Shown here: positions 4,976-64,000 of the stretch, piece by piece
How positions within the stretch are numbered: position 1 is the stretch's first letter
Layout of the letters: each line of letters begins with the position of its first letter
Origin: an uncultured Croceicoccus sp.
GTDB taxonomy: Bacteria; Pseudomonadota; Alphaproteobacteria; Sphingomonadales; Sphingomonadaceae
Direction: 5' to 3'
DNA: 64,000 nucleotides
Assembly (NCBI RefSeq): GCF_947496385.1
Contig: NZ_CANMCP010000001.1
Location: 719,416-783,415 of the forward strand
Made by a program: the position numbers and the translations under genes
The notes under the pieces: generated by a model
What the model was told of the DNA's origin: nothing
The model's database searches: none
What the model saw: the letters and a program-made list of their open reading frames with translations, nothing else

Positions 4976-4987
4976 GCGGTCGGTGGC

Positions 4988-5662: not shown

Positions 5663-5979
5663 GGCTCTGTCCTGCGCAGCGGGGCGTCATCTGCATCGTG
5701 GGGGCGGTGGGCGGGATCGGCCTGCTGGCTCGAAACAAGGCTGCGATGCGAGGTTTCGAGCGAGGCGATCCGCCGTTTGAGCCGCCATTTCGCCGATTTG
5801 TGATAGAGCCACATGGGAACCAGCCCGATGAGGAACGCGGCAAGGATCACCATCGGCAGCTTCGTTTCGAGCACCAGGTTTTCCCAGATTCGCACATCCA
5901 CGGGATACCAGTTGAACGCGGCGAACAGCGCCAGCGCCACCAGCAGCGCCACCCATATTATCGTGCGAAGAACCTGCAT
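5659..5979 (-). CDS. lapA: LapA (DUF1049) domain membrane protein
   Basis: Small inner-membrane protein of the LapA/YciS family, 106 aa. Two transmembrane helices are visible (about residues 5-24, TIIWVALLVALALFAAFNWY, and 44-60, MVILAAFLIGLVPMWLY), followed by a charged cytosolic tail. In E. coli LapA works with LapB in the control of lipopolysaccharide synthesis; no lapB is visible here. In alphaproteobacteria this gene often lies between ihfB and pyrF. Here it is first in the operon, with no ihfB before it. Confidence 0.85.
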   Translation of the reverse strand: MQVLRTIIWVALLVALALFAAFNWYPVDVRIWENLVLETKLPMVILAAFLIGLVPMWLYHKSAKWRLKRRIASLETSHRSLVSSQQADPAHRPHDADDAPLRRTEP

Positions 5980-6073
5980 GGCGGTCCTGGCCTCCTCTCG
6001 GGATCGGGTCGTCGGGCGTGCAGCCTACGCCGCAACGCCCGTTTGGCCAACCCTGCTGCAATCGCGGCCGGGT

Positions 6074-7384: not shown

Positions 7385-7476
7385 CGGGCGTACTCCGGTT
7401 CGCAAGAATTGGGGGCTTTGGCCGCGCGGCTAGGGCGCAGGCGCGCATTTGGCAAGTGCGGCGGGCGCGATGCGGC

Positions 7477-8187: not shown

Positions 8188-8396
8188 CGGCAATTCGTCC
8201 TGCGGTTTTGTCACGATGCGCTTTTCCGCGAGCGGTAGCAGCACGCACAGCAGCGCGCGTGTCGGGGAGGGCCAAAGCGCCCCGCCGGGAAGGTGTGTGG
8301 ACAGATCATGCTTTCCATTGCCTTTCGCCGCGATGCTGCGCAAGTCTGCGCCGCCGCGGTTCCGCGCGGTCGCACGAGGAATGACGGCAGGACGCA

Positions 8397-11603: not shown

Positions 11604-11833
11604 ACCGGACCAATTTGACGATAGCTGTGCATGGCGTTCGAAGGCGTGCCATTATGATACGCGGCATTGTGATGGTCGCGATGCTCGGCCCGTTTGTCAC
11701 CGCATGCGTGAATGTGACGGCGCCGTCCGACCCGATCGTCATCGAATTGAACGTGAACATCAAACAGGAAGTTCTCTACAGGCTCGTCGCCTCGGCCGAA
11801 GAGAACATCGAAAGCAATCCGGAGATATTCTGA
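11600..11833 (+). CDS. ynbE: YnbE-like outer-membrane lipoprotein
   Basis: Small lipoprotein of 77 aa. A hydrophobic signal segment ends in VTAC, a lipobox-like site near residue 36, followed by a short mature part rich in I/V (PIVIELNVNIKQEV). YnbE in E. coli is the outer-membrane partner of YdbH. The ATG overlaps the ydbH stop by 4 bp and the stop overlaps the next gene as TGATG, so the three are made as a unit. An internal methionine (MIRGIVMVAML) could be the true start and would give a more usual signal length. Confidence 0.8.
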   Translation: MNRTNLTIAVHGVRRRAIMIRGIVMVAMLGPFVTACVNVTAPSDPIVIELNVNIKQEVLYRLVASAEENIESNPEIF

Positions 11834-12240
11834 TGCCCCGCCACACTCTTGCCCGCCGCCTTGCCGGCCTCGCCCTGCCGGCGTTCGCGCTTCTCGCCAT
11901 GGCGCAGCCTGCCGGCGCGATGCAGCGCGAACCCGCCTATGCCGAGGCGCGCGCCAACGGCACCGTCGGCGAGAGGATCGACGGCTATCTCGGCTTTACC
12001 GGCGCGCCGCCGGCCGGGCTTCGCGCGGTGATCGACGACATCAATATCCGCCGCAAGGCCAGCTATGCCGACCGTGCCCGGGCCGCCGGCGTCACGATCG
12101 AGGAATTCGCCTTTGCCCAGGGCTGCATCCTCATCGCGCGCACCTCGCCGGGCGAAAAGTATCAGGCACCGGGTGGAAGCTGGCAGACCCGCGGGAGCGG
12201 CGCGCCGCAGCTCGATCCGCGCTGTCCCGCGGTGGGCTGA
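11833..12240 (+). CDS. ydbL: YdbL-family periplasmic protein (DUF1318)
   Basis: A 135-aa secreted protein. The signal peptide is residues 1 to about 28 (LALPAFALLAMAQPAGA). The mature part has DUF1318 features: EARANGTVGERIDGYLGF and IDDINIRRKASYADRARAAG. YdbL is the third member of the ydbH-ynbE-ydbL set and has been proposed to assist YdbH-YnbE assembly. The ATG overlaps the ynbE stop by 1 bp. The C-terminal tail (SPGEKYQAPGGSW) is typical of the longer alphaproteobacterial versions. Confidence 0.82.
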   Translation: MPRHTLARRLAGLALPAFALLAMAQPAGAMQREPAYAEARANGTVGERIDGYLGFTGAPPAGLRAVIDDINIRRKASYADRARAAGVTIEEFAFAQGCILIARTSPGEKYQAPGGSWQTRGSGAPQLDPRCPAVG

Positions 12241-12318
12241 ACGTCCGGGGGGCCGCCGCATCGATGGGTGCGCGGGAACGATCCTTCGCCGCTACTGCGA
12301 TGAAGGCGTGCGCTTGTG

Positions 12319-12347
12319 TTGACTTGCCCGAACCCCTTTCCTAAAGG
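12319..12347 (+). promoter_or_regulatory. Candidate sigma-70 promoter of the atp operon
   Basis: TTGACT at 12319-12324 and TAAAGG at 12342-12347 are separated by exactly 17 bp, about 70 bp before atpI. The same TTGACY-N17-TAARRN layout precedes the two tRNA genes. The rest of the 12241-12415 gap shows nothing else clear. Confidence 0.6.
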
Positions 12348-12415
12348 AGCGGCGCCCTCGACGGGCAGCTAATCGCACTTGCCGAGCGGACTTCTTGGTT
12401 GGAGGAGCTACAGGC

Positions 12416-12733
12416 ATGGGTGAAGAGCGGTCCGGGCGGGAGCCACTTGGCGAGGATGCGCGAATCGACGCGCTCGACGCGCAGCTCAAGGCTGCGAAAG
12501 AGCGGGAAGAGCAACGCAACCGGCCGCAATCCCACGGGACCGATGCGAATTATCGCATGGGAAACAGGGTGCTTGCGGAATTGCTGGGCGGGCTTATCGG
12601 CGGCGCGCTGATCGGTTGGGTGATCGACCGGTTTGCAGGTACCGGGCCGTGGGGTCTGTTGGTGATGCTGTTCCTCGGGATAGTCGTTGCTTTCAGAAAC
12701 ATAATTAGGATTTCGAACACGCGTTCCGATTGA
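12416..12733 (+). CDS. atpI: F0F1 ATP synthase assembly protein AtpI
   Basis: AtpI/AtpQ family protein, 105 aa, with a charged N-terminal region and two transmembrane helices (LLGGLIGGALIGWVIDRF and GPWGLLVMLFLGIVVAFRNI). AtpI helps assemble the c-ring and may aid Mg2+ supply. The start at 12416 has a perfect GGAGGAG 8 nt upstream; the track start at 12395 is upstream of that site and is unlikely. It heads the F0 operon atpI-atpB-atpE-b'-b. Confidence 0.88.
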   Translation: MGEERSGREPLGEDARIDALDAQLKAAKEREEQRNRPQSHGTDANYRMGNRVLAELLGGLIGGALIGWVIDRFAGTGPWGLLVMLFLGIVVAFRNIIRISNTRSD

Positions 12734-12882
12734 TCTGCCTGGCTTTACGGGCAGTATCGAAAGGGGCGCCGGTGTTTTTGCATAGCTGCGATCGTCGCCC
12801 ACACGGGGCGGGGACGCGTTGAGGGATAAGGGACGATCCGGGCAGATTGCCATGGGCCGCCTCGAACGACAGGGACAATCGC

Positions 12883-13668
12883 GTGGCAACCGAAGCCAAG
12901 GTCGATCCGATGCACCAGTTCACCATCGAGCCGCTTTTCGGCTCCGATGGGTGGGAAGTGGCCGGATATAATCTCGCATTCACGAATTCGGCGCTCTGGA
13001 TGGCGCTGACGGCGGTCGTGCTCTGGGGCTTCGTCGCGCTGGGCATGAAGGGGCAGCTCGTCCCCGGGCGCTGGCAGATGGCGGTCGAAAGCTTCACCGG
13101 CTTCGTCGACGACATGCTGGAGGCGAACATCGGCAAGGCCGGGCGCAAATACGTGCCCTACGTGTTCTCGCTGTTCATGTTCATCCTGTTCGCCAACGTG
13201 CTCGGCCTGCTGCCGCTCGGCGTCGTCGGCCTGCACCCCTTTACCTTCACCAGCCATTTCACGGTCACCGGCATTCTCGCGATCATGTCGTTCTCGATCG
13301 TGCTGATCGTCGGATTTGCGAAGCACGGGATCGGTTTTCTGTCGCTGTTCGTGCCGCATGGCACGCCCGCGCTGATGATCCCGTTCATCTTCCTGGTCGA
13401 GCTGGTCAGCTTCATGGTCCGCCCGTTCAGCCTCGCGCTGCGGCTTTTCGTGGCGATGATGGCCGGGCACCTTCTGCTCGAGGTCCTGTCGGGCTTCGTC
13501 ATCAGCAGCTCGAACGCGGGGGTCGGCACCGGCGTGCTCGTCGGCATTCCCACGTTCCTCCTGATGATCGGCATCTGCGCGCTCGAACTGCTCGTCGCTG
13601 CCGTGCAGGCCTATGTTTTCGCCCTGTTGACCGCGCTCTACATCAATGACGCGGAAAACCTTCACTAA
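12883..13668 (+). CDS. atpB: ATP synthase F0 subunit a
   Basis: Membrane subunit a, which forms the two proton half-channels against the c-ring. The track starts at a TTG (12847). The family N-terminus (VDPMHQFTIEPLF) fits better with the GTG at 12883 or the ATG at 12910. The protein has five or six helices. The essential Arg lies in MVRPFSLALRLFVAMMAGHLLLE, and the closing helix is LELLVAAVQAYVFALLTALYIND. F1 genes are not in the window, as is usual in alphaproteobacteria, where F0 and F1 are split. Confidence 0.95.
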   Translation: MATEAKVDPMHQFTIEPLFGSDGWEVAGYNLAFTNSALWMALTAVVLWGFVALGMKGQLVPGRWQMAVESFTGFVDDMLEANIGKAGRKYVPYVFSLFMFILFANVLGLLPLGVVGLHPFTFTSHFTVTGILAIMSFSIVLIVGFAKHGIGFLSLFVPHGTPALMIPFIFLVELVSFMVRPFSLALRLFVAMMAGHLLLEVLSGFVISSSNAGVGTGVLVGIPTFLLMIGICALELLVAAVQAYVFALLTALYINDAENLH

Positions 13669-13708
13669 GTCTTCGAATTACCGAATCTACGAAAGGGAGT
13701 TTATTACC

Positions 13709-13936
13709 ATGGACGCAGAAAGCGCACGCATGCTCGGTGCCGGTCTCGCCGCTGTCGGTGCCGGTCTGGCATCGCTGGGTGTCGGCAATGTCTTTGCAAA
13801 GTTCCTGGAAGGCGCGCTGCGCAATCCGGGCGCCGCAGACGGTCAGCAGGGCCGCCTGTTCATCGGCTTCGCCGCTGCCGAACTTCTCGGTCTGCTGGCG
13901 TTCGTCGTGGCGATGATCCTGGTCTTCGTGGCCTGA
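13709..13936 (+). CDS. atpE: ATP synthase F0 subunit c
   Basis: Proteolipid c subunit, 75 aa, two helices joined by a polar loop (LEGALRNPGAADGQQG). The proton-carrying acidic residue is the Glu in GFAAAELLGLLAF. The true start is ATG 13709, with AAGGGAG 9 nt upstream; the track adds 21 spurious residues. It sits 40 bp after atpB and is followed by a strong hairpin before the b' gene. Confidence 0.96.
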   Translation: MDAESARMLGAGLAAVGAGLASLGVGNVFAKFLEGALRNPGAADGQQGRLFIGFAAAELLGLLAFVVAMILVFVA

Positions 13937-13951
13937 TCGCATTGCCTGTGC

Positions 13952-13983
13952 GATCCGGCCGGGGCAGGGGCCCTGGCCGGATC
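13952..13983 (+). other. Intra-operon hairpin after atpE
   Basis: GATCCGGCC and GGCCGGATC form a perfect 9-bp stem around a GC-rich loop, between atpE and the b' gene. No T-run follows, so it is more likely an RNA-stabilising or attenuating structure than a full terminator. Confidence 0.55.
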
Positions 13984-14016
13984 GATACCTATCCAATCAT
14001 GCCTTCGGACTGATCG

Positions 14017-14511
14017 ATGCCACAAATCGAACAAATCGCCGCGACCTATGCCAGCCAGATCTTCTGGCTGCTGCTGATTTTCGGTCTCGTGTTTTTCGTG
14101 GTCGGAAAAGGCATGGTGCCCAAGGTCATGGGCACGGTCGACATGCGCGACAAGCGTATCGCCGACGATCTTACCGCCGCCGAAACCGCCCGCCGCGAAG
14201 CGGACGAGCAGGAAGAGGCATGGCGCAAACGTGAAAACGACAATCGCGCGCGGGCTCAGGCTCTCATCGCGGAGGCGAAAGCCGATGCCGCCGGCCAGAC
14301 CGAGCGTGCCGTCGCCGAGGCACAGTCCCGCATCGACGAGAAGCTCGCCGCGGCCGAGGCACGCATCGATGCCTCGCGCCGCAATGCCGCGACCGAGATC
14401 GAGAATGTCGCCACCGAAGCGACCCAGGACATCGTGAAGCGCATTGCCGCGCTCAACGTGTCGCAGGCCGAGGCGCACAACGCCGTCAAGGAGGTCATGG
14501 TCCGTGGCTGA
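14017..14511 (+). CDS. atpF': ATP synthase F0 subunit b'
   Basis: The b' (AtpG-type) peripheral-stalk subunit, 164 aa: one N-terminal membrane helix (ASQIFWLLLIFGLVFFVVG) and a long charged coiled coil that reaches to F1. Two different b-type genes (b' then b) are typical of alphaproteobacteria and phototrophs, where the stalk is a heterodimer. The stop overlaps the b start by 8 bp. Confidence 0.92.
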   Translation: MPQIEQIAATYASQIFWLLLIFGLVFFVVGKGMVPKVMGTVDMRDKRIADDLTAAETARREADEQEEAWRKRENDNRARAQALIAEAKADAAGQTERAVAEAQSRIDEKLAAAEARIDASRRNAATEIENVATEATQDIVKRIAALNVSQAEAHNAVKEVMVRG

Positions 14512-15109
14512 TTACCAACTGTTTCTGAACGGCATGGCCGTTACCTCCGTCGGGGTCGAGGAACGCCTCGATCATGCTGCCGAACTCGAAGGCATGACCG
14601 AGGACCACGGCGGCGAGCATGTCGAACCTGTGGCGTTCGGCTTCATCGGGCCGGGTGCATGGGTGTCGATGGCGATGCTCGTGTTCATCCTTATCCTGTT
14701 GTGGAAAGGTGTGCCGAAACTCGTCGCAGGCAGCCTGGATGCGCGTATCGCTGCCATCCGGGAGCAGCTCGACGATGCAAAGCGCCTGCGCGGCGAAGCC
14801 GAAGCTCTTCGCAAAGAATATGCCGACAAGATTGCCGGTGCCGAACGCGACGCGGAGGCCATGCTCGAAAATGCGCGGCGCGAGGCCGGTGCCATTGTCG
14901 AGCGTGCGGAAACCGACACGGCGGCGATGATCGCCCGCCGCGAACGCATGGCGCAGGACAAGATTGCCGGCGCCGAACGCGCCGCGGTCGAGGAACTGCG
15001 CGCGCAGGCAGCCCGCGCCTCGGCCGAAGCATCGGGGCAGATCATCGCCCGCAACCACAACGCGGTCGCCGATCGTGCGCTGGTTGACAAGGCGATCGCC
15101 AGCTTCTGA
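14504..15109 (+). CDS. atpF: ATP synthase F0 subunit b
   Basis: Second stalk subunit, 201 aa from the GTG at 14504 (VADYQLFLNGMAV); the track start at 14444 lies inside b' and is not credible. A longer N-terminal extension precedes the membrane helix (GPGAWVSMAMLVFILILLW), followed by an Ala/Glu/Arg-rich coiled coil. The 8-bp overlap with b' suggests coupled synthesis of the heterodimer partners. A strong terminator follows 22 bp after the stop. Confidence 0.92.
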   Translation: MADYQLFLNGMAVTSVGVEERLDHAAELEGMTEDHGGEHVEPVAFGFIGPGAWVSMAMLVFILILLWKGVPKLVAGSLDARIAAIREQLDDAKRLRGEAEALRKEYADKIAGAERDAEAMLENARREAGAIVERAETDTAAMIARRERMAQDKIAGAERAAVEELRAQAARASAEASGQIIARNHNAVADRALVDKAIASF

Positions 15110-15130
15110 CCCTATTGCCAGCGTCAGAAT

Positions 15131-15164
15131 AAAAGCCCGGCGGGAGCGATCCTGCCGGGCTTTT
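15131..15164 (+). terminator. Rho-independent terminator of the atp operon
   Basis: AAAAGCCCGGCGGG and CCTGCCGGGCTTTT form a 14-bp stem with a 6-nt loop ending in TTTT. The A-run on the left makes it work in both directions, so it also serves gloB, which ends at 15198 on the other strand. Confidence 0.9.
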
Positions 15165-15197
15165 CGTATTTGTCAGCTATCGCGGCGCAAGCTGATC

Positions 15198-15956
15198 TCA
15201 AAATGCATCCTTCGCGGCGCGCAGGGCTGCAAACGTCGCCACCGCATCACCGCCACCCCAGCGCCCCTGCATTCCGGCGTCATCGGCCCGAAGAAACGGG
15301 TTGGACGCCAGTTCCCGTTCCAGCGTCGTGGGAACCGTCGGCTTGCCTTGCGCCCGCAGCGCCTCCACCTCTTCGGCATAGTCGCGAAGTGCGCCATTAT
15401 CGGGATCCGCATGCAGCGCGAATCGGGCGTTTGCGGCGGTATATTCATGTGCGCAATAAATCGTCGTCTGCGGCGGCAATGACTTAAGGCGCAGCAGGCT
15501 GTTCCAGAATTGATCGGCCGTCCCCTCGAACATGCGGCCACAGCCGAGCGCGAACAACGCGTCACCGACAAAGGCGATTTCCGCGTCGGGTAGGTGATAG
15601 GCAATATGGCCGTGGGTATGGCCACCGACATCGATGATCTGCGCCTCGTGCGCGCCGACGCGAACCGTGTCGCGGCCCGCGACGGTGCGGTCGATCGCCG
15701 CGATTTTCGGTGCTTCTGCGGCGGGCGCGACGATATGGCATCCGGTCGCGGCCTTGATCGCCTCGTTTCCACCGGCGTGGTCGGGATGCCAGTGCGTGTT
15801 CCAGATCTGCGTGATCGTCCAGCCCTTGCTTTCTGCCTCACGCAGATACGCGTCGGCATCGGGCGTATCGATGCAGACGGTCTCCCCGCTTTCCGCATTG
15901 TGCAGGAGGTATCCGTAATTGTCGGACAGGCAGGGAAACTGGTGAATGTGCAACAT
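15198..15956 (-). CDS. gloB: Hydroxyacylglutathione hydrolase (glyoxalase II)
   Basis: Metallo-beta-lactamase-fold thioesterase that releases D-lactate and glutathione from S-lactoylglutathione in methylglyoxal detoxification. At 252 aa it has the metal motif THWHPDH (H55, H57, D59, H60), VGGHTHGH, and FVGDALFALGCGRMFEG with the bridging Asp. HEYTAANARFAL is the C-terminal glutathione-binding region of true glyoxalase II. It is a single gene convergent with the atp operon. Confidence 0.95.
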   Translation of the reverse strand: MLHIHQFPCLSDNYGYLLHNAESGETVCIDTPDADAYLREAESKGWTITQIWNTHWHPDHAGGNEAIKAATGCHIVAPAAEAPKIAAIDRTVAGRDTVRVGAHEAQIIDVGGHTHGHIAYHLPDAEIAFVGDALFALGCGRMFEGTADQFWNSLLRLKSLPPQTTIYCAHEYTAANARFALHADPDNGALRDYAEEVEALRAQGKPTVPTTLERELASNPFLRADDAGMQGRWGGGDAVATFAALRAAKDAF

Positions 15957-50550: not shown

Positions 50551-52761
50551 ATGCGAATTTATGCTGCCATCTACGGCTTCATGGAGTTCGATCCGGCCAA
50601 ACAGGTCGCACTCGAAACGGGGTTGGGAGGAACCGTCCAGCTCCCCATCATCATACTCGATGCCTATCCACCGGTGATCAATGCCTGGGATCATTTGCTC
50701 GACTTGCTGGGCGATGCTTTGGTGCGTTCGGCCTTGCTTCTCGTGCCGGCGTTCGTGCTGTTCTACTGGTTCGCAGCGCGCTTCGGCAGCCGTTCAAAAG
50801 AGCGCAAACATGAGCGCGGGGCCATGCTCGTTACACTACCGGAACTGGTCGATGAACTGCGCGGGCACAACCAGCGCGAGCGCGCCCGTGAGCTCTCGAG
50901 CTCTATGGGTTGGAAATGGCATCTGTGTTCGCCCAAGGAACTGTCTGCGGCATTTCCATACCGGCCCTCGCATCTTGCGACGGTTGTCTATCCCTGGCGG
51001 CTTGAACAGAGCCACGCCATGCTCATCGGGACCACCGGCATGGGCAAGACAGTCGCCATGTCGGACATGATTGCTGAAGCCCGCGCCAAGGGACAGCGCT
51101 GCGTCGTGTTCGACCTAACCGGCGCTTTTATCGAACACTTCTACCAGGCCGACCGGGACATCATTCTGAACCCGCTCGACGCGCGCTGTCCGCAATGGAG
51201 CCTCTTCGACGAATGCCGCACCGAAGGTGAATTCTGGGCGGCAGCGGAAGCCATCGTACCCCATGACGGGGGCGGGGAGGCGCAATTCTGGGTTATCGCG
51301 GCGCGTGCGCTGTTCGTCGAATTCTGCCTCAAACTGGTGGCCGAAGGGCGGGGCACCAATGCTGCGCTTGCCCGCGAACTGATGACCGCTGATCTCTCGC
51401 GGGTCCACGCAATGATGCGAGGCACGATCGCCGATCCCCTAACCGCTCCTGAAGCCGCGCGCATGGCGGAATCGATCCGGGCAGTGTTCAACGTGAACGC
51501 CAAGGCGCTGAAGCTCCTGCCCACTTCCGGGCGCCGCTTTTCAATCCGCGACTGGATCGAGGAGGGCGCCCATAACGACGAAGGCACTAACGCCAAAAGA
51601 AGTGGCTCCATGGTCTTCATCTCCGCGCGCTACGTCGACATGAGCGTGTGCGCGCAGCTGCTTACGCTGTGGCTCGATACGGCGATGAACACGCTTATGA
51701 CGATGCCTCGCACCAAGGACCTCAAATGCTGGTTCTTCATTGACGAACTGGGCGCGCTTCACCGGCTCCCCGCTCTCGAAAAAGGCCTGCAGACGGCGCG
51801 TAATTTCGGCGGCGCGATCGTCACCGGCATCCATGCCTATGCCAAGCTCAAGGAGGTCTACGGTGAGAACATGGCGATGACGCTTGCATCGCTTGCCCGG
51901 ACAAAATTGATCCTCGGTACGGCAGATCGCGAGACCGCCACCTGGTGTTCCGACTTCATCGGTCATCGCCAGGTTCGCGACATGGAAGAAGGCTACACCT
52001 ACGGCTACAACAATGCCCGCGACGCCGTCAGCCTGACGCCGCGCAAGCATATCGAGCCTTTGCTGCTGCCCGACCAGTTGATGAACCTGCCGCGCCTGTC
52101 AGGCTTCATCAAATTCCCCGACGGCTTTCCAGCAGCGCCGGTCCGTCTGAAGCCGATAGACCGGGAAAGAATCGCGCATGTCTTCGTCGGTCGGGCCAAG
52201 GATCGAGAACCAATCCGGCAGGTCGATGGCAAGAGTGAAGGCGACGAGACGGCTGCCAATCCGCCCGCAAGTCAGAGCGAACATCCCTCGTCGAACGATG
52301 ACGGGGCGGGCAAGCCCGTCGTCCCAAAGCAAGGTACTCTTTCACTAGAGTCGGCAGTGGATGTCGATGCCAAGCAATCACGCCAGCGGGTGACGAAGCA
52401 GGCCGAAAAGGACGTTCTCGACGACACCAGGAAGGTGTCAGCCAAATCCGATCATCCGCGACGATCGTCGCCCGAAGGGCGCGCGGCAACGCCGCGTAAT
52501 TCCCGTCCGCTGCTGCCGACGAATGCGGCGTTTCGCAAAGGCGATCATCCCGATGAGAAGGATCCATCGAATAGCGTGAAGGAGGGACGCCGAAGCGACT
52601 TGCCGCGGGCCAATCCGCCCTCGGATAAGCCGCAAGCCGTCGATCGGATAGCCCAGCGCCAGCGAGAGGCAGAAGCCCGCAAGCTCATGCTCGAAGACGG
52701 CGTTCCCGAGCAGGATCAGCCTTCGCACGAGGGTCCCGACCTCGGCGATTTTGAACTGTGA
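50551..52761 (+). CDS. traD: TraD-type coupling protein (truncated by TAG or restarted)
   Basis: Type IV coupling protein, an inner-membrane hexameric ATPase that feeds the relaxase-DNA complex to the secretion channel. Seen from ATG 50551 it has 736 aa; the original frame begins at 50377 and is broken by TAG. It keeps the second membrane helix (ALLLVPAFVLFYWFAARFG), the Walker A IGTTGMGKTVAMSD, Walker B-like KCWFFIDELGALHRL and a disordered, charged C-terminus (about 200 residues). Without the first helix membrane insertion would be altered. The gene lies 37 bp before the relaxase. Confidence 0.85.
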   Translation: MRIYAAIYGFMEFDPAKQVALETGLGGTVQLPIIILDAYPPVINAWDHLLDLLGDALVRSALLLVPAFVLFYWFAARFGSRSKERKHERGAMLVTLPELVDELRGHNQRERARELSSSMGWKWHLCSPKELSAAFPYRPSHLATVVYPWRLEQSHAMLIGTTGMGKTVAMSDMIAEARAKGQRCVVFDLTGAFIEHFYQADRDIILNPLDARCPQWSLFDECRTEGEFWAAAEAIVPHDGGGEAQFWVIAARALFVEFCLKLVAEGRGTNAALARELMTADLSRVHAMMRGTIADPLTAPEAARMAESIRAVFNVNAKALKLLPTSGRRFSIRDWIEEGAHNDEGTNAKRSGSMVFISARYVDMSVCAQLLTLWLDTAMNTLMTMPRTKDLKCWFFIDELGALHRLPALEKGLQTARNFGGAIVTGIHAYAKLKEVYGENMAMTLASLARTKLILGTADRETATWCSDFIGHRQVRDMEEGYTYGYNNARDAVSLTPRKHIEPLLLPDQLMNLPRLSGFIKFPDGFPAAPVRLKPIDRERIAHVFVGRAKDREPIRQVDGKSEGDETAANPPASQSEHPSSNDDGAGKPVVPKQGTLSLESAVDVDAKQSRQRVTKQAEKDVLDDTRKVSAKSDHPRRSSPEGRAATPRNSRPLLPTNAAFRKGDHPDEKDPSNSVKEGRRSDLPRANPPSDKPQAVDRIAQRQREAEARKLMLEDGVPEQDQPSHEGPDLGDFEL

Positions 52762-52798: not shown

Positions 52799-55735
52799 AT
52801 GCTCTCTGTAGCCAACGTCCGCACGGCTGGCGGCGCTGCCAACTACTTTGCCGCTGACAATTACTATACCCGCGCCGATGCCGAGCGATCTGGTCAATGG
52901 CTTGGCAAAGGCGCGGAGGCGCTTGGACTGCGAGGCGTCGTCGAAGCCTCGCAGTTCGAGGCCGTGCTCAAGGGCATGCTGCCCGATGGAAGCCGTGTCG
53001 GGAGCGATAACAGGGCGCATCGCGCCGGCACCGACCTCACATTCTCGATGCCCAAGAGCTGGTCCATCCTTGCCCTCGTCGGCGGCGACAGGCGTATCCT
53101 CGATGCCTATGGTGCGGCCGTCCGCGAGACTCTGGCCTGGGCTGAGAAGAATCTCGCCGAAACCCGCATGGAAGTCCGAGGCAAGGAGCGGGTGGTCGCG
53201 ACACGCAATCTCGTGATCGGGCTTTTCCAGCACGACACGAACCGCAATCAGGAGCCCAACGCGCACTTTCACGCCGTGGTTGCCAATGTCACCCAGGGAC
53301 CCGATGGCAAATGGCGAGCGCTGAGGAATGACAAGATCTGGGAGCACAACACGCTGCTCAATGCCATGACCATGGCGCGCTTCCGCTTGGCCGTAGAAAA
53401 GCTCGGCTACCAGGTCGGCGAATTCGGCAAGCATGGCAATTTCGAAGCGGTGGGCGTCCCAAAACCCGTTCGTGACGCCTTCAGTTCGCGCCGTACCGAG
53501 ATTCTCGAGGCATACTCGACCATGGAGGCAAAAGGTCCGGCCGCACTGGATGCAGCCACATTGATGACCCGCGCGGACAAAGGGCCGGTGGCGGACCGCC
53601 AGGCTCTCGTGAACCAATGGCGCGAGGCAGCGGCACAGTTGGGCTTTGATCCGAGGCTTGTCATTTCACAGGCCAATGCACGGGCCGCCACCGACATTGG
53701 CTCCGTCTCCGGAATTGGAAATTCGGTCCGATCGATCGGTCAGCGGGCGCGCCTTTTGGCTGCGACCTTCGCGGAGCGTCTGGGGCTACGTCAGGGCGAT
53801 CCGCTTGTGCCTCGCGACATCGAGCGCCGGACGCCCGAACAGATCGCCGCCGTTCATGCGGTCGCATCGGCAATCCGGCATTTGGGCGAGCGCGAGGCGG
53901 CGTTCTCGCGGACCGAGATATATCGCTCAGCGCTAGGCTTTGCCTTGCCCACCACGCTCCCCGACATCGAACACCGCGTCGACCAGTTGCTGCGCCAGGG
54001 CCACCTGCAAAAAGGCAAGGGTGCAGATCGCAATCTTGTTACGACCCGCGATGCGATCGGGCTCGAACAGCGCATCATCGCCGCCGTCGAAACCGGACGT
54101 GGCCATGGGTCTGCCGTGGTCGAAGCTGATGTGGCCGGAGAGCGGCTACAGGCGCTCTCTCAGCTCAAATATGGCCTGACCTTGAACCCTGGCCAGGAAG
54201 GGGCAGGGTGCCTGCTTCTCGCCTCGCATAACCGGATTGTCGCGATTCAGGGTGTGGCGGGCGCCGGCAAGAGTACCGTCCTCAAACCTGTGGCGGACAT
54301 CTTGCGCGAGGAAGGCAGGTCCGTGCTCGGACTAGCAGTCCAGAACACGCTCGTGCAGATGCTTGAACGTGACACCGGCATTCCCTCGATGACGGTCGCG
54401 CGCTTTCTACGCCAACATCAGGGCCTTCTGGAAGGAGCAGACCAGGCGAGGCTTGCCGAGACCCGCGCGTCTCTGCGCGGCACCACGGTGCTACTCGACG
54501 AAGCCTCGATGGTCGGCAATGCCGACAAGGAAAAGCTGGTGCGCCTCGCCAACCTGCTTCAGCTCGACCGCTTCGCCAGCATAGGGGACAGGAACCAATT
54601 GGGCGCTGTCGATGCGGGCAAACCCTTCGACGTCATGCAGAAGGCAGGCGTCGAAACGGCTACCATGAACACCAATCTCCGGGCCCGCGATAAGGCGTTG
54701 CGCGACGCTCAATATGCAGCGCAGGGCGGAAACATCGACGAGGCCTTGCGACATCTTGGCCCGCATGTCGTCGCGTCGGGAAATACAGCTGCCGTCGACG
54801 CCGCGGCGGCCTGGCTATCGCTTTCGCCTGCAGAGCGGGAGATGACCGCGATTTATGCTTCGGGTCGCAACTTGCGCGGACAGGTGAATGAAGCAGTCCA
54901 AATCGGGCTCAAGGCCAATGGCGAATTGGGACCGGGTTCCTTGGGTCTCACTGTGCTGTCGCGCGTCAATCTGACGCGTGAGGAAATGCGCTATGCGCGC
55001 AGCTATGCGGCCGGCATGGTGCTCGAAGTCGACCGCCGGCAAAGGGGGCAGGGGCTGCAGAAGGGCCGCTATGATGTGATCGAAACCGATCCCACCCGCG
55101 AACGCGTGATGCTGCAGAACGAGCGGGGCAAGCGCTTTGAATTCCGGCCGGGCCAGATACGACCGCAGGGTGAGCAGGATCCCCTGCGTCTGTTTGAGGT
55201 TCGCCCACTAGAAATCTACGATGGCGACCGCGTTCGCTGGACGGCGACCGATCACAAGCGCGGACTGCTCAACGCCGATCAGGCGCGCATCATGGCGGTT
55301 GATGCGAAGGGTGTCACGGTGAAAACGTCGCTCGGCACCGAACACCTGCTGGGGCTGGGCGACCCCATGCTTGAGCGTCTAGATCTCGCCTACGCGCTCA
55401 ATGCGCACATGGCGCAGGGTCTGACCTCCGACCGCGGGATCGCCGTCATGGATAGCCGCGAACGCAATCTTGCCAATCAGCAGACATTTCTCGTGACGAT
55501 AACCCGCCTGCGCGATGGTCTGACCCTGTTTGTCGACAATGCGGGCAAGCTCGAAGCAGCTGTTGAGCGCAATCCGGGAATGAAGCGCTCGGCACTCGAA
55601 ACGGTCAATCAGCTGCGCAATGCGGCAGCAATTGGCCAGGCTAAGGGCAAGGCGTCTGATCGTTCGCAAGAACCGGCTCGCGAGCCGCCCGAACTCGATC
55701 GCTCGATCACCAAGCCCTTCGAAATCGGGATCTGA
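52799..55735 (+). CDS. traI: MobF-family relaxase/helicase (TraI/TrwC-like)
   Basis: Conjugative relaxase of 978 aa that nicks oriT and unwinds the strand. The TrwC domain has the catalytic tyrosines in NYYTRADAERSG (Y22/Y23) and the three-His metal site in EPNAHFHAVVANVT (about residue 150), with TDLTFSMPKSWSI between them. The C-terminal half is a RecD-like helicase with GVAGAGKSTVLKP (about residue 485), LLDEASMVGN and a closing ALNAHMAQGLTSDRG. The gene is intact, unlike the two before it. Confidence 0.93.
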   Translation: MLSVANVRTAGGAANYFAADNYYTRADAERSGQWLGKGAEALGLRGVVEASQFEAVLKGMLPDGSRVGSDNRAHRAGTDLTFSMPKSWSILALVGGDRRILDAYGAAVRETLAWAEKNLAETRMEVRGKERVVATRNLVIGLFQHDTNRNQEPNAHFHAVVANVTQGPDGKWRALRNDKIWEHNTLLNAMTMARFRLAVEKLGYQVGEFGKHGNFEAVGVPKPVRDAFSSRRTEILEAYSTMEAKGPAALDAATLMTRADKGPVADRQALVNQWREAAAQLGFDPRLVISQANARAATDIGSVSGIGNSVRSIGQRARLLAATFAERLGLRQGDPLVPRDIERRTPEQIAAVHAVASAIRHLGEREAAFSRTEIYRSALGFALPTTLPDIEHRVDQLLRQGHLQKGKGADRNLVTTRDAIGLEQRIIAAVETGRGHGSAVVEADVAGERLQALSQLKYGLTLNPGQEGAGCLLLASHNRIVAIQGVAGAGKSTVLKPVADILREEGRSVLGLAVQNTLVQMLERDTGIPSMTVARFLRQHQGLLEGADQARLAETRASLRGTTVLLDEASMVGNADKEKLVRLANLLQLDRFASIGDRNQLGAVDAGKPFDVMQKAGVETATMNTNLRARDKALRDAQYAAQGGNIDEALRHLGPHVVASGNTAAVDAAAAWLSLSPAEREMTAIYASGRNLRGQVNEAVQIGLKANGELGPGSLGLTVLSRVNLTREEMRYARSYAAGMVLEVDRRQRGQGLQKGRYDVIETDPTRERVMLQNERGKRFEFRPGQIRPQGEQDPLRLFEVRPLEIYDGDRVRWTATDHKRGLLNADQARIMAVDAKGVTVKTSLGTEHLLGLGDPMLERLDLAYALNAHMAQGLTSDRGIAVMDSRERNLANQQTFLVTITRLRDGLTLFVDNAGKLEAAVERNPGMKRSALETVNQLRNAAAIGQAKGKASDRSQEPAREPPELDRSITKPFEIGI

Positions 55736-57013: not shown

Positions 57014-57658
57014 CTAGCGAAGCGCGCGGCCGAACCAAAGCACGCGGCCGACGATATTGATCGTCCGCTTCTCCAGTCCGCGCCAACTGGGATAGGCCGG
57101 ATTGTCGCTGAGCACCGAGACCCGCTTGCCTTGCGGCTCGATTGCGACCCGCTTGACGCTGAGCATGTCGTCCATGCGCAGCACATAGATCCCGTCGCGC
57201 AGCCGCGACTGTCCATCGTTGAGATCGACCATGACTTCATCGCCGTCATGCAGCGTTGGCTCCATCGAATCCCCGTGCACGGCGATGATCGAAAGGCTCG
57301 TCGCCTTGCTTGCGGTCAGACGGCGCAGCCACTTCTCGTCAAACCCGAACTGGGCGCATTTGGATTCCATTTCGGCCAAAGCGCCGTGCCCCGCCGAGGC
57401 TTCGACATCGAGAACCGGAACATGGACCAGTTCGACGACCGGGCCGGATCGCCGCTCGGGAGCGCCAAGGATTTTTTCGTCCACGCCGAAGAAGCGGGCG
57501 AGCACGGAGCGGTCCTGCTCGTCCAGTTGGCGGGGACTGCCGCGGCGGATGTATTGCTGGATGTAGGCCGCGTTGCGTCCGAGAAGGCGAGAAATCGAAG
57601 AGTAATTACAGCCTCGTTGCCGGATCAGATCGTCCAGGGCTTTGCGTGCATCTTCCAT
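57014..57658 (-). CDS. S24-family LexA/CI-like repressor
   Basis: A 214-aa regulator: an N-terminal Xre-like helix-turn-helix (CNYSSISRLLGRNAAYIQQY) and a C-terminal S24 peptidase domain with the nucleophile Ser in IIAVHGDSMEPTLHDGDEVM and the Lys in MDDMLSVKRVAI. Such proteins cleave themselves when RecA is active, so the operon and its divergent neighbour should respond to DNA damage. It heads an operon with the nuclease, DUF5818 and DUF6961 genes. Confidence 0.9.
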   Translation of the reverse strand: MEDARKALDDLIRQRGCNYSSISRLLGRNAAYIQQYIRRGSPRQLDEQDRSVLARFFGVDEKILGAPERRSGPVVELVHVPVLDVEASAGHGALAEMESKCAQFGFDEKWLRRLTASKATSLSIIAVHGDSMEPTLHDGDEVMVDLNDGQSRLRDGIYVLRMDDMLSVKRVAIEPQGKRVSVLSDNPAYPSWRGLEKRTINIVGRVLWFGRALR

Positions 57659-57766: not shown

Positions 57767-57940
57767 ATGGAGCTCCTGGACCAGATTGAGGGCTACTTGG
57801 CGCGTAGCGGTACGAAGGCCAGCATGTTTGGTAGGCAGGCAGTTGGGGACCCACGGTTTGTTCAGGATCTTCGCGAAGGCAGAAGGCCAAGGGAAAAGAC
57901 GCGGCAACGTGTAAGGCAGTTCCTAGAAGGAAACCCCTAG
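57767..57940 (+). CDS. Small regulator-like protein, below track cut-off
   Basis: A 57-aa ORF not on the track: MELLDQIEGYLARSGTKASM, then FGRQAVGDPRFVQDLREGRR and a basic C-terminus. The pattern resembles short alphaproteobacterial DNA-binding proteins (GDPRFVxDLRxGR). It is divergent from the S24 gene across the operator array, so it is probably under its control, as a Cro-like partner. The ribosome site is weak (GAAGG). Confidence 0.65.
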   Translation: MELLDQIEGYLARSGTKASMFGRQAVGDPRFVQDLREGRRPREKTRQRVRQFLEGNP

Positions 57941-57996
57941 CATCCTATCGAATATATCATCATGATGTAGACAAGTTTTTACAAATTTATGGAAAT

Positions 57997-59403
57997 CTAT
58001 TGAATCCTCACAAGGACCTTGTCTTCATTTATGCATTCTTGTTTTTTCCTTTCTAGTTCTATAGAGCGCTGTTGTGATCGTGAAGACATGCCAAAAACGT
58101 CGGCCTTGCGCAGCAAAACGCGTCGATCACTCCGAACAATCACGTCTTGTCGTTTCAAATCTATAGTGACTGACGTGTCGGTTTCGGGAAATGAATTGCG
58201 CCTGCCTGAAATGCGGAAGAGGGTGGCGCGTCGACGCATAGGGTCGACGCGGATAATGTGTTCATCATTCATCTCGCCTGACAAATACAACGCACATCCG
58301 ATAAAGCACCTGATAATCCCTTCGAGTTCAGCCACACGCCTGTTGTCAATTACAAGCCGACCATCCTCGTCGATTGCACCTAGCCTACTTTTAGACGCTC
58401 GAAGAATCGCATCAACTGTGCGGTGTGGGTCTGAAAGGCCATGAAGATATTCCATTGCTTGTTCGACGAACTGCTGCTGGCTTCCGAAAAGGTGGCGGAT
58501 GTCACGAACAATCGAAGGGCCTGGCCGGGCGGCTGATCGAGACCGGTTCAGGATGTTCAGCGCCTGATGGACCAGCAAATCCTCACGACGCTGTGCTTCT
58601 GCTTGAGCAAGGAGCTCATCGCTGATCCCTCCGCCTCTAGTTGCATCGAGTGCGCGCGCGAACGAAACCCGTTCCCTGACGAGGATATCATGAACATCTG
58701 ACGGTATCTCGTCGGGGTGAGGCATTCGTCCGCGTTGGGCAGCAAACGCTGCGACAACATCGATTACGGGAGCAAGCCGTTCCTGAAGATGCGGCTGAAT
58801 TGGCTTTGATCCGACTGGCCGGTCGCTACGATATGCGCTCGTCGAGGCCCTGCGCCCGCGTCTACGCTCCAGAAGGAAATCTTGCTCTTCCTCAGGTGAA
58901 CGGAATAGCGCGAAAATTCCAGGAGCAAGTGCGATCGGCTCAACGTCAACAACTTGCGTCAACAGTGCTTTGAGTTCGGCCTGTTGGAAGTACTTCTGGA
59001 ATGTCCCTCTTGTCGTAAGGTAGCCATCGCCGAAGGGTTTCAATCCGTCTACGGGTACAGCCCCGACGACCATTACTGAGACGATGAGCACGCGCCGCGT
59101 TAGACCCCAAGCTGTGGTGAGGGCGTCCACTCTCTCGACCGGATCTTCAATTACATTGAGGACGAAACCGATGTTGACGACTTCCGCCTCCCGTCTATCT
59201 CGGTCCGTAGCAAAATAAGGATCCCATCCATTGGCCTCAATGCCCGCCGCTGCGAGTGCACGCAGATCGTCGCCCTGACCACAGCCATAGTCGAAGACGG
59301 TCACGCCCGGACGGACCAGCCCATGTCTCACTGCGAGGGACATGGGTTGGGACAGCGTATGACGGACCATCGCCGTGCGATGACGCTGGACCTCTACGCT
59401 CAT
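57997..59403 (-). CDS. DNA phosphorothioation-associated putative methyltransferase
   Basis: A 468-aa protein from ATG 59403, whose start overlaps the previous stop as ATGA. It opens with VEVQRHRTAMVRHTLSQPM, then the SAM-binding VTVFDYGCGQGDDLRALAAA and VVNIGFVLNVIEDPVERVDA, the signature of the family found with dnd clusters (TIGR04096 by memory). The C-terminal 250 residues are helical and unassigned. Its true substrate is unknown. Last gene of the dptH unit. Confidence 0.82.
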   Translation of the reverse strand: MSVEVQRHRTAMVRHTLSQPMSLAVRHGLVRPGVTVFDYGCGQGDDLRALAAAGIEANGWDPYFATDRDRREAEVVNIGFVLNVIEDPVERVDALTTAWGLTRRVLIVSVMVVGAVPVDGLKPFGDGYLTTRGTFQKYFQQAELKALLTQVVDVEPIALAPGIFALFRSPEEEQDFLLERRRGRRASTSAYRSDRPVGSKPIQPHLQERLAPVIDVVAAFAAQRGRMPHPDEIPSDVHDILVRERVSFARALDATRGGGISDELLAQAEAQRREDLLVHQALNILNRSRSAARPGPSIVRDIRHLFGSQQQFVEQAMEYLHGLSDPHRTVDAILRASKSRLGAIDEDGRLVIDNRRVAELEGIIRCFIGCALYLSGEMNDEHIIRVDPMRRRATLFRISGRRNSFPETDTSVTIDLKRQDVIVRSDRRVLLRKADVFGMSSRSQQRSIELERKKQECINEDKVLVRIQ

Positions 59404-59867
59404 GATTCCACGACCTCGTCGCCAACTACCAGTAGACCTGCCGCAGCAAGACGCGCCGACCAGAGCTTCTGTCTTCCAATCAGGTGACTGTTTTCGAAAA
59501 GGCCCTTTTCCACTAGCTGCTTCGTTGTCGTTGCCCATCTTGCCACCCTCGGGTCTCGATCGCCAAATAGCTGTTCTTTTCTATGAAGAATTAGTGGGTT
59601 TTCCGATCGACTGAAGTCTGTGCGCTTGGTTTCGCCAGTTGATAAGTTCAATCTCGTCGACGCGATCAGACGTGGAAACGCGGCGCTATCGAAGTCCTCG
59701 TATTCAAGAAGGCCGACAATGTCACCTTGAAGTCTCGCGACATTCCAGTTCACGCCTCTCGATATGGCGGTCGCCTTGTCGAGCAATTTGCGTGCCTCGG
59801 GCGCCAGCTCTGCAACTGCCGTGCGGTGAACATAGAGTGCCCCCCGAACTACTTTCCCAACCGACAT
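59400..59867 (-). CDS. Partner protein of the phosphorothioation-associated methyltransferase
   Basis: A 155-aa protein (GKVVRGALYVHRTAVAELAP, LLEYEDFDSAAFPRLIAST, SENPLILHRKEQLF). I recall the LYVHR and NPxILHRKE motifs as part of the same phosphorothioation-associated methyltransferase family, where they can be fused to it; here they form a separate gene. The ATG follows the dptH stop with no gap and its stop overlaps the methyltransferase start, so the set is translated together. Confidence 0.7.
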   Translation of the reverse strand: MSVGKVVRGALYVHRTAVAELAPEARKLLDKATAISRGVNWNVARLQGDIVGLLEYEDFDSAAFPRLIASTRLNLSTGETKRTDFSRSENPLILHRKEQLFGDRDPRVARWATTTKQLVEKGLFENSHLIGRQKLWSARLAAAGLLVVGDEVVES

Positions 59868-62800
59868 CTATTCTGCCGCTTCCCGTCTCACCTCCAGCCA
59901 CGTTTCGATCACGGCGTCGGCAAGCTCCTCAACCTCGTCATCCCCGATGAAGGGGACCTGCAGGTAGATCTTATCATCGGTGTCCAATTTTGCGATCAAG
60001 TGTCCTTTCCCCAGTAGGCGGTCAGCTCCCACCTCTCCAAGTGCGATACGGGAACTTCCTTCGTCGCCGAGGTGCAGGATCAGCTTGTTGCCCAGGTTGG
60101 TTCTCAACTGCATCGTCATCACTTGGTTGTCGGCTCGTTGGTACACCATGAACAGGTGGAAGCCAGCGGCGCGGGACTTGGTAGCGATCTTGTTGATTAG
60201 GCCATCGACTTCCTTCTTGAACTCGTCGTCCTGCATCCAGTTGGCAACTTCATCAAAGAAGATGACGATGCGCGGCATTTTCCGTTCAGGCTGCACCTTT
60301 CGATTATATTGATCGATGTTGCGGCAGTTCTCTCGGCTAATCTCGTCGTACCGCCGGTCCATATCGGCGACCAAACGCTCAAGTAATGCCAGAGCTTCGT
60401 CCTGGTCGTCTATGATCCCGCCCCTCAAGTGCGGAAGTCGCCGCGCCCAAGCGTAGTCGACCCCCCGCTTTGGGTCGATCAGATGCATTTCCAGTTCATC
60501 AGGACTGTTTAGGGCACAGAGGTCGAGTATGAGGTTAGTAACAAGGATGCCTTTGCCGCTCCCGGTCGTCCCTGAGACGAGACTGTGGGGCGCCGCCCGT
60601 TCTTGCGAGAGATAGCCGCTGGCAAGTGGTAGGTAGCACAAGCTTCCGTCGTCTTCCTTCTCGCCCAGAAGCGGCGAGGTCCGCTGCCCTTCGACCGGGT
60701 CAGATGCGCGTTTTAGCCAAGCATCAGCAAGATGCAGGATAGCCCGCGCAGGCCGACGCAGTCCGATCGCGATCTGACCGGGCAAAGGGGATATCCGCAC
60801 GATGTCGAGACCATAGCGCGTCAACAGGTCGGTTCGTTTTCTCTCCAGCCAAGCCACAGTCAGGGTGCGTCCCCCCACATAGACGAGGCCAGTGTTCGGC
60901 GTGAGCCGCTGCCCCATTACCGGAGCGTCCATTCCCTCGCCTTGCAGTGCGGCGCGGAGGGCGTCGATCTGCGACGCTAGCCAGGAATTGCCCTCCGCCT
61001 CATCGCCTGCATTTCTGAGGCGATGAAGCACCGAGTTAATCCGCTGACTCCAAGGACCATTGGGCTCCATTGGGTCATCGTCCACGGCGTCTTCAGTTAG
61101 CAGTTTAGCTTCTTCATCAGGTGTTGGCCCGTCGGGCTGAGGATCACGTTGTGGCGGAGCGTCATCTGGGGGACTGTTATCGCCCATGCCGGCATCACGC
61201 TGCTGCGCTTCGGGCTGTTTCCCTTCAATCGTCTCGTCGAAGGACGTTGACTGGGGCCACCCAGTGGGAACGTGGACTATCCCGGGTTGCGCGTCATCGG
61301 CTAGGCCCCGCAGGGCTTTGGCGGTTTCAGCGCGTGAGAATACCCATTGTGCGAGACGTCGTCGGTCGGCGATAACCTTGGCCTCGTCGGGTAGATGAGG
61401 CATCGGCTCGAATACCGTGTCGAGTTCATGGCTGAACACTATCGAGTGACCGTCGACAGATATGGGGAATGAGCCGTCTCTCAGCCCTTCAAGCCACCGA
61501 TCTTGAGTAATTCCGCCAACTTGGTCGAAGGGGTCCATGTGTTCGAGGACCATGTCCGCGAGGCGATGCCGCCAGATCGCGGGGTCGAGATTGGCAGATC
61601 CTCCGAGCAAGCGTTGGTTGAGCGCAGTCCAGGTTGACTCTAGTTGCCCTGCGGAACGCTTACGCTGATCGGAGATCCCATCCTGTCCGACGTATTTCGC
61701 CTCGGCAACTACAACACGGATTTCCGGTCCGTTCGCACTCACTGCGAAGTCGATGGCTAGTATGTCCGCCATCTCTCCGGTCAGATCGAGCCAGTCGCGA
61801 TAGTCATCGAGGAAAAACCATGCAGTCCGGTTCTCGCGATCAACCTTGAGCAAGCGGTCCAGTTCGCGTTGTGAAAGGACGAGCCCAAGCAGTTCGTGCG
61901 CGTAGTTCGCCCATTGTGCACCGCGCATGACAACGCCTCCGGAGAGCTGTGCCGCGCGGATAAATAGCTGATGGCGCAAAGCTGAAAGATCGTCGGTTCC
62001 GATGCCTTGGAGCAAGATGCCAACGTCGACGTCGATGCAGTCGCCAAGGTCGTCCTCGGTTATCTCGGTCGAGACGATCACGTTGTGCGTCGATCCCGGC
62101 ACGCTAAAGTATCGGATGATGCGACGTTCGTTGGTGGCGATCAGCCGCCGATCCGCGACGCGATCGAACGTCATGACCCAGTTTCCGAGGCTGTGCGCCT
62201 TGCCGAGGATTTGACTGACTTCGCCTGCCTTGAATTCTACCTCCTGAACGGGGAGCCAAGGTTCTGGATTCGTTGCGACGTCCCGCATCATGATCGTGCG
62301 GAGGGCGTCGACGTAAATACGGCCCGCCAATGGCTGCCGCGGGGCTGTCAAATAGAGCGCAGACGTGGTGTTGCCTTTCCGGAACGGGCGACGTTTCGAC
62401 CGAGCGGTAGGGACGAACGTGGCAAAATCTTCGCTGGACCCGTCGTCAAAACCCTTAGTCCATCGCACATTGCTGCTGCGAGCGATCACGTCCCGTAGAA
62501 GGACGACATCGTTGGCCTTCTGGGTTTCCTGAGCCAGAGTTTCCGGGCTGAAGATGCCTACGCGCAGACGCGAAAGGAAATTGCGGGCGGCCTCGCTGGC
62601 GAGGCTCGTGTCGATCTCGTGGCTTATGCGGCGGTTCTGCCTTTCGTAAACTTGCCGAAGTCGGATTGGATCGTCATCGGTAACCACCAGTTCGCACCTG
62701 ATTTCGCTGTCGTCCTCGACACGACGTGACAATCCATTCGCCATTGCCAGAGGGAGGTTCTCTGAATCCGCGTTGAGAATGACGACCGAGAAATTGGCGC

Positions 62801-63692
62801 GCTCGTGAGGCCGCAGCTTTAGATACTCGTTGGCGACGCGGTCGAAAGCCTTGATGGCTGCGTCTGTGGGTTCGTTAGTGACACCATGTTGGGATCCGCC
62901 GGACAGTGGTTCGAGAAGGCTGTAGTCCATCACTGCCTGGGTTTCAGCTACGAGTTGTGCGTCGAGGCCAGGAAGCACGGCGACATCGCCGTAATACGTC
63001 CCGCCAAGGGTTGCGATGCGGTCCTCTACGAAGTCCTCTACTCCACTGCGCTGTTCTTGATTGCTCGTGACAACGTCAGTGATGGCACTGGCCAATTGGC
63101 GTGCCTTCGCCCCGATTTCGGCGAGCCGCAGCGGATGCCAAGGAGTCAGTATCGCGGAGGGGGTGTCTCCGTCGATCAAGATGAGCCCGATGCGCGCCAG
63201 AGGGGCAAGCAGATCCCGGATGCACAGTTCCTGAGGGGCTATCGTCATGACGCTACGAAGCAGGTCACCATAGACCTCGGCTTGGAGAAGAAGCTCGTCG
63301 GCGCCCACTCCGGTGCCACGGAGGAGCGCTTCGATCGCTGCGCCATAGGCAGTAATGAAAGCATCGTAAGCGTTACCGAGTTCCTGTCCTTCGGTCGCTG
63401 TGATCACACCGCTCTCGACGATCGCTTCCAGCGACTGCGGCCAAGTGACGTCGATCCGATTCTCGTCACGCCCAGGATTGGCGAGCAGGCCCTCGCTCTG
63501 TTGGAACGCATCCAACACCGTGCTGCGCTGTGCCAGATCAACTACACTTGGCGCGGCATTCCGGCTCGCTCGATTATGATGGATGCGACCTGAAATGAGG
63601 AAGGTCGGCTGTGTCGCATCCTGCTTGCGAATTTGACGTAGATCTATCGACAAGGATAAGCCGAGCGCCTCTGGCTTCGGCTTCCAAGTCAT
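59868..63692 (-). CDS. dptH: DptH-like phosphorothioation-dependent restriction ATPase, N-terminus lost
   Basis: DptH acts with DptF and DptG to cut DNA lacking phosphorothioate marks. The visible 1274 aa end in an FtsK/HerA-like ATPase: Walker A SLVSGTTGSGKGILVTN (about residue 1040), HLIDPKRGVDYAW, Walker B RIVIFFDEVANW (about 1140) and VYQRADNQVMTMQLRTNLGN. Upstream motif TPWHPLRLAEIG fits the family. DptH is usually about 1,600-1,800 aa, and the frame clearly continues before this ATG, so the gene is truncated. Base use is less GC-rich than the core genes. Confidence 0.82.
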   Translation of the reverse strand: MTWKPKPEALGLSLSIDLRQIRKQDATQPTFLISGRIHHNRASRNAAPSVVDLAQRSTVLDAFQQSEGLLANPGRDENRIDVTWPQSLEAIVESGVITATEGQELGNAYDAFITAYGAAIEALLRGTGVGADELLLQAEVYGDLLRSVMTIAPQELCIRDLLAPLARIGLILIDGDTPSAILTPWHPLRLAEIGAKARQLASAITDVVTSNQEQRSGVEDFVEDRIATLGGTYYGDVAVLPGLDAQLVAETQAVMDYSLLEPLSGGSQHGVTNEPTDAAIKAFDRVANEYLKLRPHERANFSVVILNADSENLPLAMANGLSRRVEDDSEIRCELVVTDDDPIRLRQVYERQNRRISHEIDTSLASEAARNFLSRLRVGIFSPETLAQETQKANDVVLLRDVIARSSNVRWTKGFDDGSSEDFATFVPTARSKRRPFRKGNTTSALYLTAPRQPLAGRIYVDALRTIMMRDVATNPEPWLPVQEVEFKAGEVSQILGKAHSLGNWVMTFDRVADRRLIATNERRIIRYFSVPGSTHNVIVSTEITEDDLGDCIDVDVGILLQGIGTDDLSALRHQLFIRAAQLSGGVVMRGAQWANYAHELLGLVLSQRELDRLLKVDRENRTAWFFLDDYRDWLDLTGEMADILAIDFAVSANGPEIRVVVAEAKYVGQDGISDQRKRSAGQLESTWTALNQRLLGGSANLDPAIWRHRLADMVLEHMDPFDQVGGITQDRWLEGLRDGSFPISVDGHSIVFSHELDTVFEPMPHLPDEAKVIADRRRLAQWVFSRAETAKALRGLADDAQPGIVHVPTGWPQSTSFDETIEGKQPEAQQRDAGMGDNSPPDDAPPQRDPQPDGPTPDEEAKLLTEDAVDDDPMEPNGPWSQRINSVLHRLRNAGDEAEGNSWLASQIDALRAALQGEGMDAPVMGQRLTPNTGLVYVGGRTLTVAWLERKRTDLLTRYGLDIVRISPLPGQIAIGLRRPARAILHLADAWLKRASDPVEGQRTSPLLGEKEDDGSLCYLPLASGYLSQERAAPHSLVSGTTGSGKGILVTNLILDLCALNSPDELEMHLIDPKRGVDYAWARRLPHLRGGIIDDQDEALALLERLVADMDRRYDEISRENCRNIDQYNRKVQPERKMPRIVIFFDEVANWMQDDEFKKEVDGLINKIATKSRAAGFHLFMVYQRADNQVMTMQLRTNLGNKLILHLGDEGSSRIALGEVGADRLLGKGHLIAKLDTDDKIYLQVPFIGDDEVEELADAVIETWLEVRREAAE

Positions 63693-63873
63693 CTGCGCCC
63701 GATTTGCGTGGGGCTTGCTCGTCCGGTTCTTCCTAAGGGCGTCTAATTCCTCGGCGGTTACCAGATACGCCTCGAACTCGAATTCCGTTGCTGCCTTGCC
63801 AACGCTCGCATTTTCCTCCTTTACGCTCTGCTCCCATTCGCCTTCCCAACAGCGACCAAAGTCGAGGACGGCG
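63693..63873 (-). pseudogene. dptH: Upstream part of the dptH frame, cut by an insertion sequence
   Basis: Read in the dptH frame, this stretch codes for plausible protein (AVLDFGRCWEGEWEQSV, EFEFEAYLVTAEELDALRK) with no start codon until 63692 and no stop until 63896. The open frame therefore belongs to dptH, and the break lies near 63874, where the insertion sequence begins. Confidence 0.7.
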
Positions 63874-63927
63874 TGAGGTGCGAGTGTTCCCCGTCAGCAC
63901 CCATGGCACAGATTTGAGGTTGTAATT

Positions 63928-63988
63928 AAGGAGGGTTTGGGCTTCGTCGTAGTGACGAAGGAACGAAGATGAAGCCCAAACCCTCCTT
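63928..63988. repeat. 18-bp perfect inverted repeat over the transposase start
   Basis: AAGGAGGGTTTGGGCTTC (63928-63945) and GAAGCCCAAACCCTCCTT (63971-63988) are perfectly complementary with a 25-nt loop. The loop holds the AAGGA ribosome site, and the right arm starts at the G of the ATG. In a transcript from outside the element this hairpin would hide the start. Confidence 0.85.
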
Positions 63989-64000
63989 GAAAAATTCACT
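63969..64000 (+). CDS. Transposase OrfA, first residues only
   Basis: MKPKPSLKNSL with AAGGA 7 nt upstream, cut by the window end after 10 codons. Assigned to an IS3-family OrfA by its opening residues and context; too short for proof. Confidence 0.5.
   Translation, partial: MKPKPSLKNS

Follow-up and report, generated by a model that had tools for sequence, protein, structure and literature searches.

The window, by which we mean the whole 64,000-nt stretch of the Croceicoccus contig analyzed here, carries near its end the 3′ part of sspH, a gene of the phosphorothioate-linked Ssp system (SspBCD-SspFGH). The gene is cut by an IS3-family element whose left end abuts it, and all other ssp genes are absent from the assembled genome. 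Most likely, the element inserted into sspH and an IS-associated deletion removed the upstream remainder of the cluster, with both the marking and the attacking half of the system gone. The remnant is thus an ordinary wreck of a lost defense system and not a modification-only one, and the cell should be neither phosphorothioated nor protected by the Ssp system.

Results

The truncated gene encodes SspH

The original prediction had named the interrupted gene dptH. We found instead that the protein encoded by the truncated minus-strand ORF matched the PADLOC profile for SspH (PDLC02806, 1488 bits, profile positions 497–1765 of 1766), while the Dnd/Dpt restriction models among the NCBIfam and PADLOC profiles gave no match to it. 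As only SspH models matched, we rejected an identity as DptH/DndH. The C terminus of the remnant matched FtsK_SpoIIIE (PF01580, E = 1.9e-26), and this ATPase domain is intact. In intact relatives from the same taxonomic family, sspH open frames span 1739–1803 aa and their products match profile positions 1–1765. The closest relative that we found was sspH of Sphingobium sp. C100 (1779 aa, TTG start), whose product shares 94% amino-acid identity with the remnant. Alignment with these intact relatives showed that, as predicted, the missing part is N-terminal: residues 1–441 of about 1779 (C100 numbering) are gone, so that the window does not hold a full-length SspH. FtsK chains in the PDB were the matches for the intact SspH homologue; the predicted model of the lost N terminus was fairly confident (pLDDT 82), and its fold had no significant PDB match.

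An IS3-family element cuts sspH at codon 441/442

The frame had been predicted to stay open for about 60 codons before its first ATG and to break at about 63874. The first of these points held, with 64 open and protein-like codons counted 5′ of the first internal ATG (63692), and the break was moved to 63884/63885, where homology to the intact C100 gene ends at the junction base (window 63884 = C100 9809) and the IS terminus TGTTCCCCGTCAGCACC begins. From the junction the remnant runs uninterrupted to its natural stop; in the other direction, the sspH frame enters the IS and reaches a stop after three IS codons. That an IS3-like element cuts the gene was borne out by the last 116 bases of the window, whose resemblance to an IS3-family left end is far beyond chance and from which the transposase reads away from sspH. 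The contig (C1) ends inside the IS, with window 64000 corresponding to C1:783415. The features are collected in Table 1.

Table 1. Features of the truncated ssp region and the adjoining conjugative module (window coordinates).
Feature	Position	Strand	Basis
traD-like coupling protein	50551–52761	+	PF10412/PF08751 matches in traD-traI region
MobF-type relaxase traI	52799–55735	+	PF10412/PF08751 matches in traD-traI region
S24-type repressor gene, edge of cargo slot	57014–57658	−	PF00717
Phosphorothioation-associated putative methyltransferase	57997–59403	−	TIGR04096, 333.6 bits (cut-off 150)
155-aa gene directly after sspH	59400–59867	−	Matches C-terminal third of TIGR04096
sspH 3′ part	59868–63884	−	Codons 442–1779 of intact gene (Sphingobium sp. 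C100 numbering)
Junction, sspH codon 442/IS end	63884–63885		IS terminus and limit of C100 homology
IS3-family left terminal 116 bp	63885–64000	+	Terminal repeat TGTTCCCCGTCAGCACC, then 23-bp hairpin over transposase start codon

In Sphingomonadales plasmids, this left end recurs at 88–96% identity ahead of genes annotated as “IS3 family transposase”, and complete plasmid copies, likewise annotated as IS3 family, are about 1.52 kb long and encode orfA (HTH_Tnp_1) and orfB (rve). Since the window holds just the first codons of orfA, both domains were tested on a complete copy that is 96% identical over the shared end (L038), in which orfA with HTH_Tnp_1 is followed by an overlapping orfB with rve (DDE), as in IS3. 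The inverted terminal repeats begin with TG (left, TGTTCCCCGTCAG; right, ...CTGACGACGGACA, the latter read in other copies only). The 23-bp hairpin (63926–63989, z = −5.5) covers the transposase start, and across nine IS copies two of its pairs had changed on both sides with pairing kept (G-C/A-U and U-A/G-C). In some other IS elements, such a hairpin blocks translation of the transposase from outside transcripts, and by analogy the hairpin found here may do the same.

Near-identical IS ends also mark the ends of seven further contigs in the host genome: they are 75–120 bp long on C2, C7, C15, C20, C26 and C28, and the one near the start of C23 is split by a second copy. The recurrence of one IS end on many contig ends indicates that this repeat broke the assembly. 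At the start of C23 (L029, 1–123), one IS copy has inserted within the left end of a second, and C28 (L031, 6956 bp), which is bounded by an IS right end on one side and a left end on the other, carries a Gabija pair (GajA, GajB) along with an S24 gene. The assembly holds no intact IS body and five right ends to seven or eight left ends, which means that the draft lacks some of the junctions. The left flank at the sspH junction, CGAG, equals no IS right flank in the assembly. Target duplication cannot decide the insertion history, because this IS rarely leaves one: six of seven complete plasmid copies (L038, L039, L090–L094) had none. The seventh had a 14-bp flanking repeat, which is unusual for IS3. 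When IS ends were paired by target duplication, only C26 and C9 shared 4 bp (CCAT), with about 0.14 such matches expected by chance among 35 pairs.

The remainder of the ssp cluster is absent from the assembly

We searched the host genome with the whole intact C100 cluster (bases 1–15700), in which recovery of the 3′ part served as a built-in positive control. The sole match joined C1:777422–783299 to C100 9809–15686 at 86% nucleotide identity, and C100 bases 1–9808 matched nowhere in the assembly. Thus sspB, sspC, sspD, sspF, sspG and the part encoding SspH 1–441 are not in the assembled genome, which therefore holds no complete system. A search for SspG was positive in 5 of 5 cluster-bearing relatives and returned 0 hits in the host genome; searches of the host genome for the SspD and DndC families and for the SspH N terminus found nothing. 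This verdict of absence rests on an assembly of 3.34 Mb in 55 contigs that is rated 100% complete.

The missing 5′ part had been expected on the far side of the IS, but no IS right end in the assembly leads into sspH 5′ sequence, and none of the five flanks ssp sequence of any kind. To reach the sequence beyond the IS by way of the conjugative element, we compared the corresponding slots of two other genomes (G121 and G038) with contig ends and small contigs totaling 764 kb. This returned only a different copy on C16 (about 75–82%), and the traG side of the element was not found beside any IS right end. The original prediction further held that loss of the DptH N terminus should inactivate restriction and leave any modification genes working. 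Restriction must indeed be lost through the truncation, but the marking genes are absent from the assembly along with the attacking genes, and with no sspB, sspC, sspD or dndC present we rejected a modification-only state.

Downstream genes and intact clusters in relatives

The two genes downstream of the remnant that match the model for a phosphorothioation-associated putative methyltransferase are not the phosphorothioate-making genes. The likely start of the methyltransferase gene is the ATG at 59403, although its open frame reaches 59538. TIGR04096 is split in permuted order, the gene for the C-terminal third coming first and the methyltransferase after it, and this arrangement, with the methyltransferase gene in the same position, is conserved in three other loci (L034; L050, from C100; and L095, from a gentR plasmid). 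We rejected the idea of a damaged methyltransferase (two ORFs under one model), since intact clusters also carry two genes.

Sphingobium sp. C100 (NZ_AYOY01000187.1) carries sspB-C-D-F-G-H and two methyltransferase-associated genes. A second relative (G157), whose stretch ends within sspC, shares the order sspC-D-F-G-H, and in both sspH is followed first by a ~155-aa gene and then by the phosphorothioation-associated methyltransferase. The cluster on the Sphingomonas sp. gentR plasmid (NZ_CP144671.1) has a cysteine desulfurase gene upstream, and in two further genomes (G035 and G222) sspFGH lies on the strand opposite to sspC-D.

The remnant lies in a cargo slot of a conjugative element

The ssp remnant adjoins the traD-traI-S24 module of a conjugative element. 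The host genome (3.3 Mb) holds at least five related traD-traI modules, on C1, C7, C9, C14 and C16. Another genome in the genus (G121) matches the window at 93% identity between about 49.8 kb and about 57.9 kb (57912) and then diverges. Between S24 and traG it carries a DUF499/DUF1156-methyltransferase system, and in the same slot G038 carries a methyltransferase and McrBC-like genes. The cargo of the S24-traG slot (57912–64000 in the window) is therefore variable, differing in each genome examined (L083/L084, L086), and is rich in restriction and defense genes; the slot is likely a defense hotspot.

The remnant shows no sign of decay

The 1338 codons of the sspH remnant contain no stops or frameshifts, and comparison with Sphingobium C100 gave dN = 0.029 and dS = 0.413 (dN/dS about 0.07). 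Polarized with Tianweitania populi, 22 amino-acid changes were assigned to the window and 25 to C100. The remnant thus shows no visible relaxation of constraint and no excess of amino-acid change, and the loss is therefore likely recent; the change counts fit recent loss and continued constraint alike and cannot separate them.

Discussion

We infer both the deletion route and its recent date. An SspBCD-SspFGH cluster would first have been carried as cargo of the conjugative element beside the S24 repressor gene; the IS3-family element would then have landed in sspH at codon 441/442, and sspH 1–441, sspG, sspF, sspD, sspC and sspB (about 9.7 kb) would have been lost following the insertion or coupled with it. 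The deletion would most likely have been IS-associated, through recombination of two IS copies or through an adjacent deletion made by one. SspFGH is toxic to cells that lack the SspBCD mark (PMC8092258), and loss of sspBCD alone would hence be harmful; disruption of sspH ahead of the rest, or removal of the whole set at once, would be tolerated, which makes joint loss the tolerable outcome. Against a deletion stands the fact that the contig ends inside the IS, with some junctions missing and the other deletion edge not found. The same contig break, together with the several IS right-end junctions that are unrepresented, would suit a simple insertion, in which the remainder of the cluster lies just beyond the IS, was dropped from the draft, and may still support modification. 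We consider this unlikely, as unique sequence amounting to about 9.7 kb should have formed a contig of its own, and none of it was found in 3.34 Mb rated as 100% complete.

It is very unlikely that this lineage never had the complete cluster and that the fragment came already truncated and was captured beside the IS through horizontal transfer or recombination: the variable cargo slot of a mobile element and the abundance of IS ends at contig ends speak for such a capture, but the operon order with the downstream genes is kept, and the lack of excess amino-acid change places the remnant recently in a working cluster. The intact frame, low dN/dS and complete translocase domain could also mean that a shortened SspH (442–1779, or from the ATG at 63692) is kept with the methyltransferase pair as a working unit. 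This is highly improbable, since the low dN/dS would mostly reflect the time before the truncation, and SspF and SspG, which like SspH are each required for defense (PMC8092258), are gone; in addition, a weak test found no promoter-like site in the last 500 bases. We give equally little credence to the truncated translocase and methyltransferase pair persisting as a functional leftover with a role independent of phosphorothioation.

The locus is a clear, IS-bounded example of phosphorothioate defense loss in which marking and attacking genes went together, and such joint loss agrees with the toxicity reported for SspFGH when SspBCD is lacking. It also warns that truncation at a contig end is not to be read as a modification-only state. 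The case is an ordinary one and its wider value is small.

Among known systems, the closest is SspABCD-SspFGH (mBio 2021, PMC8092258): the window gene is SspH by profile and shares the C-terminal FtsK/SpoIIIE similarity described there, and its intact relatives have sspBCD beside sspFGH, whereas in the window sspH is reduced to its 3′ three quarters, with the methyltransferase genes after it as the only other survivors. DndFGH/DptFGH is also tied to phosphorothioation, and DndH too resembles DNA translocases; the SspH remnant, however, lacks any DptH/DndH profile match, and SspFGH has no significant identity or similarity to DndFGH/DptFGH (PMC8092258). The C100 and gentR plasmid clusters share the gene order of the window, including the separate gene of about 155 aa and the TIGR04096 methyltransferase, but are complete and lie in other surroundings (sugar-metabolism genes in C100, a plasmid in gentR). 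The IS3-family element on Sphingopyxis granuli pRW412b (NZ_CP063841.1) is 96% identical in its left end, hairpin and orfA start and carries orfA with HTH_Tnp_1 and orfB with rve, of which the window shows the first 116 bp only.
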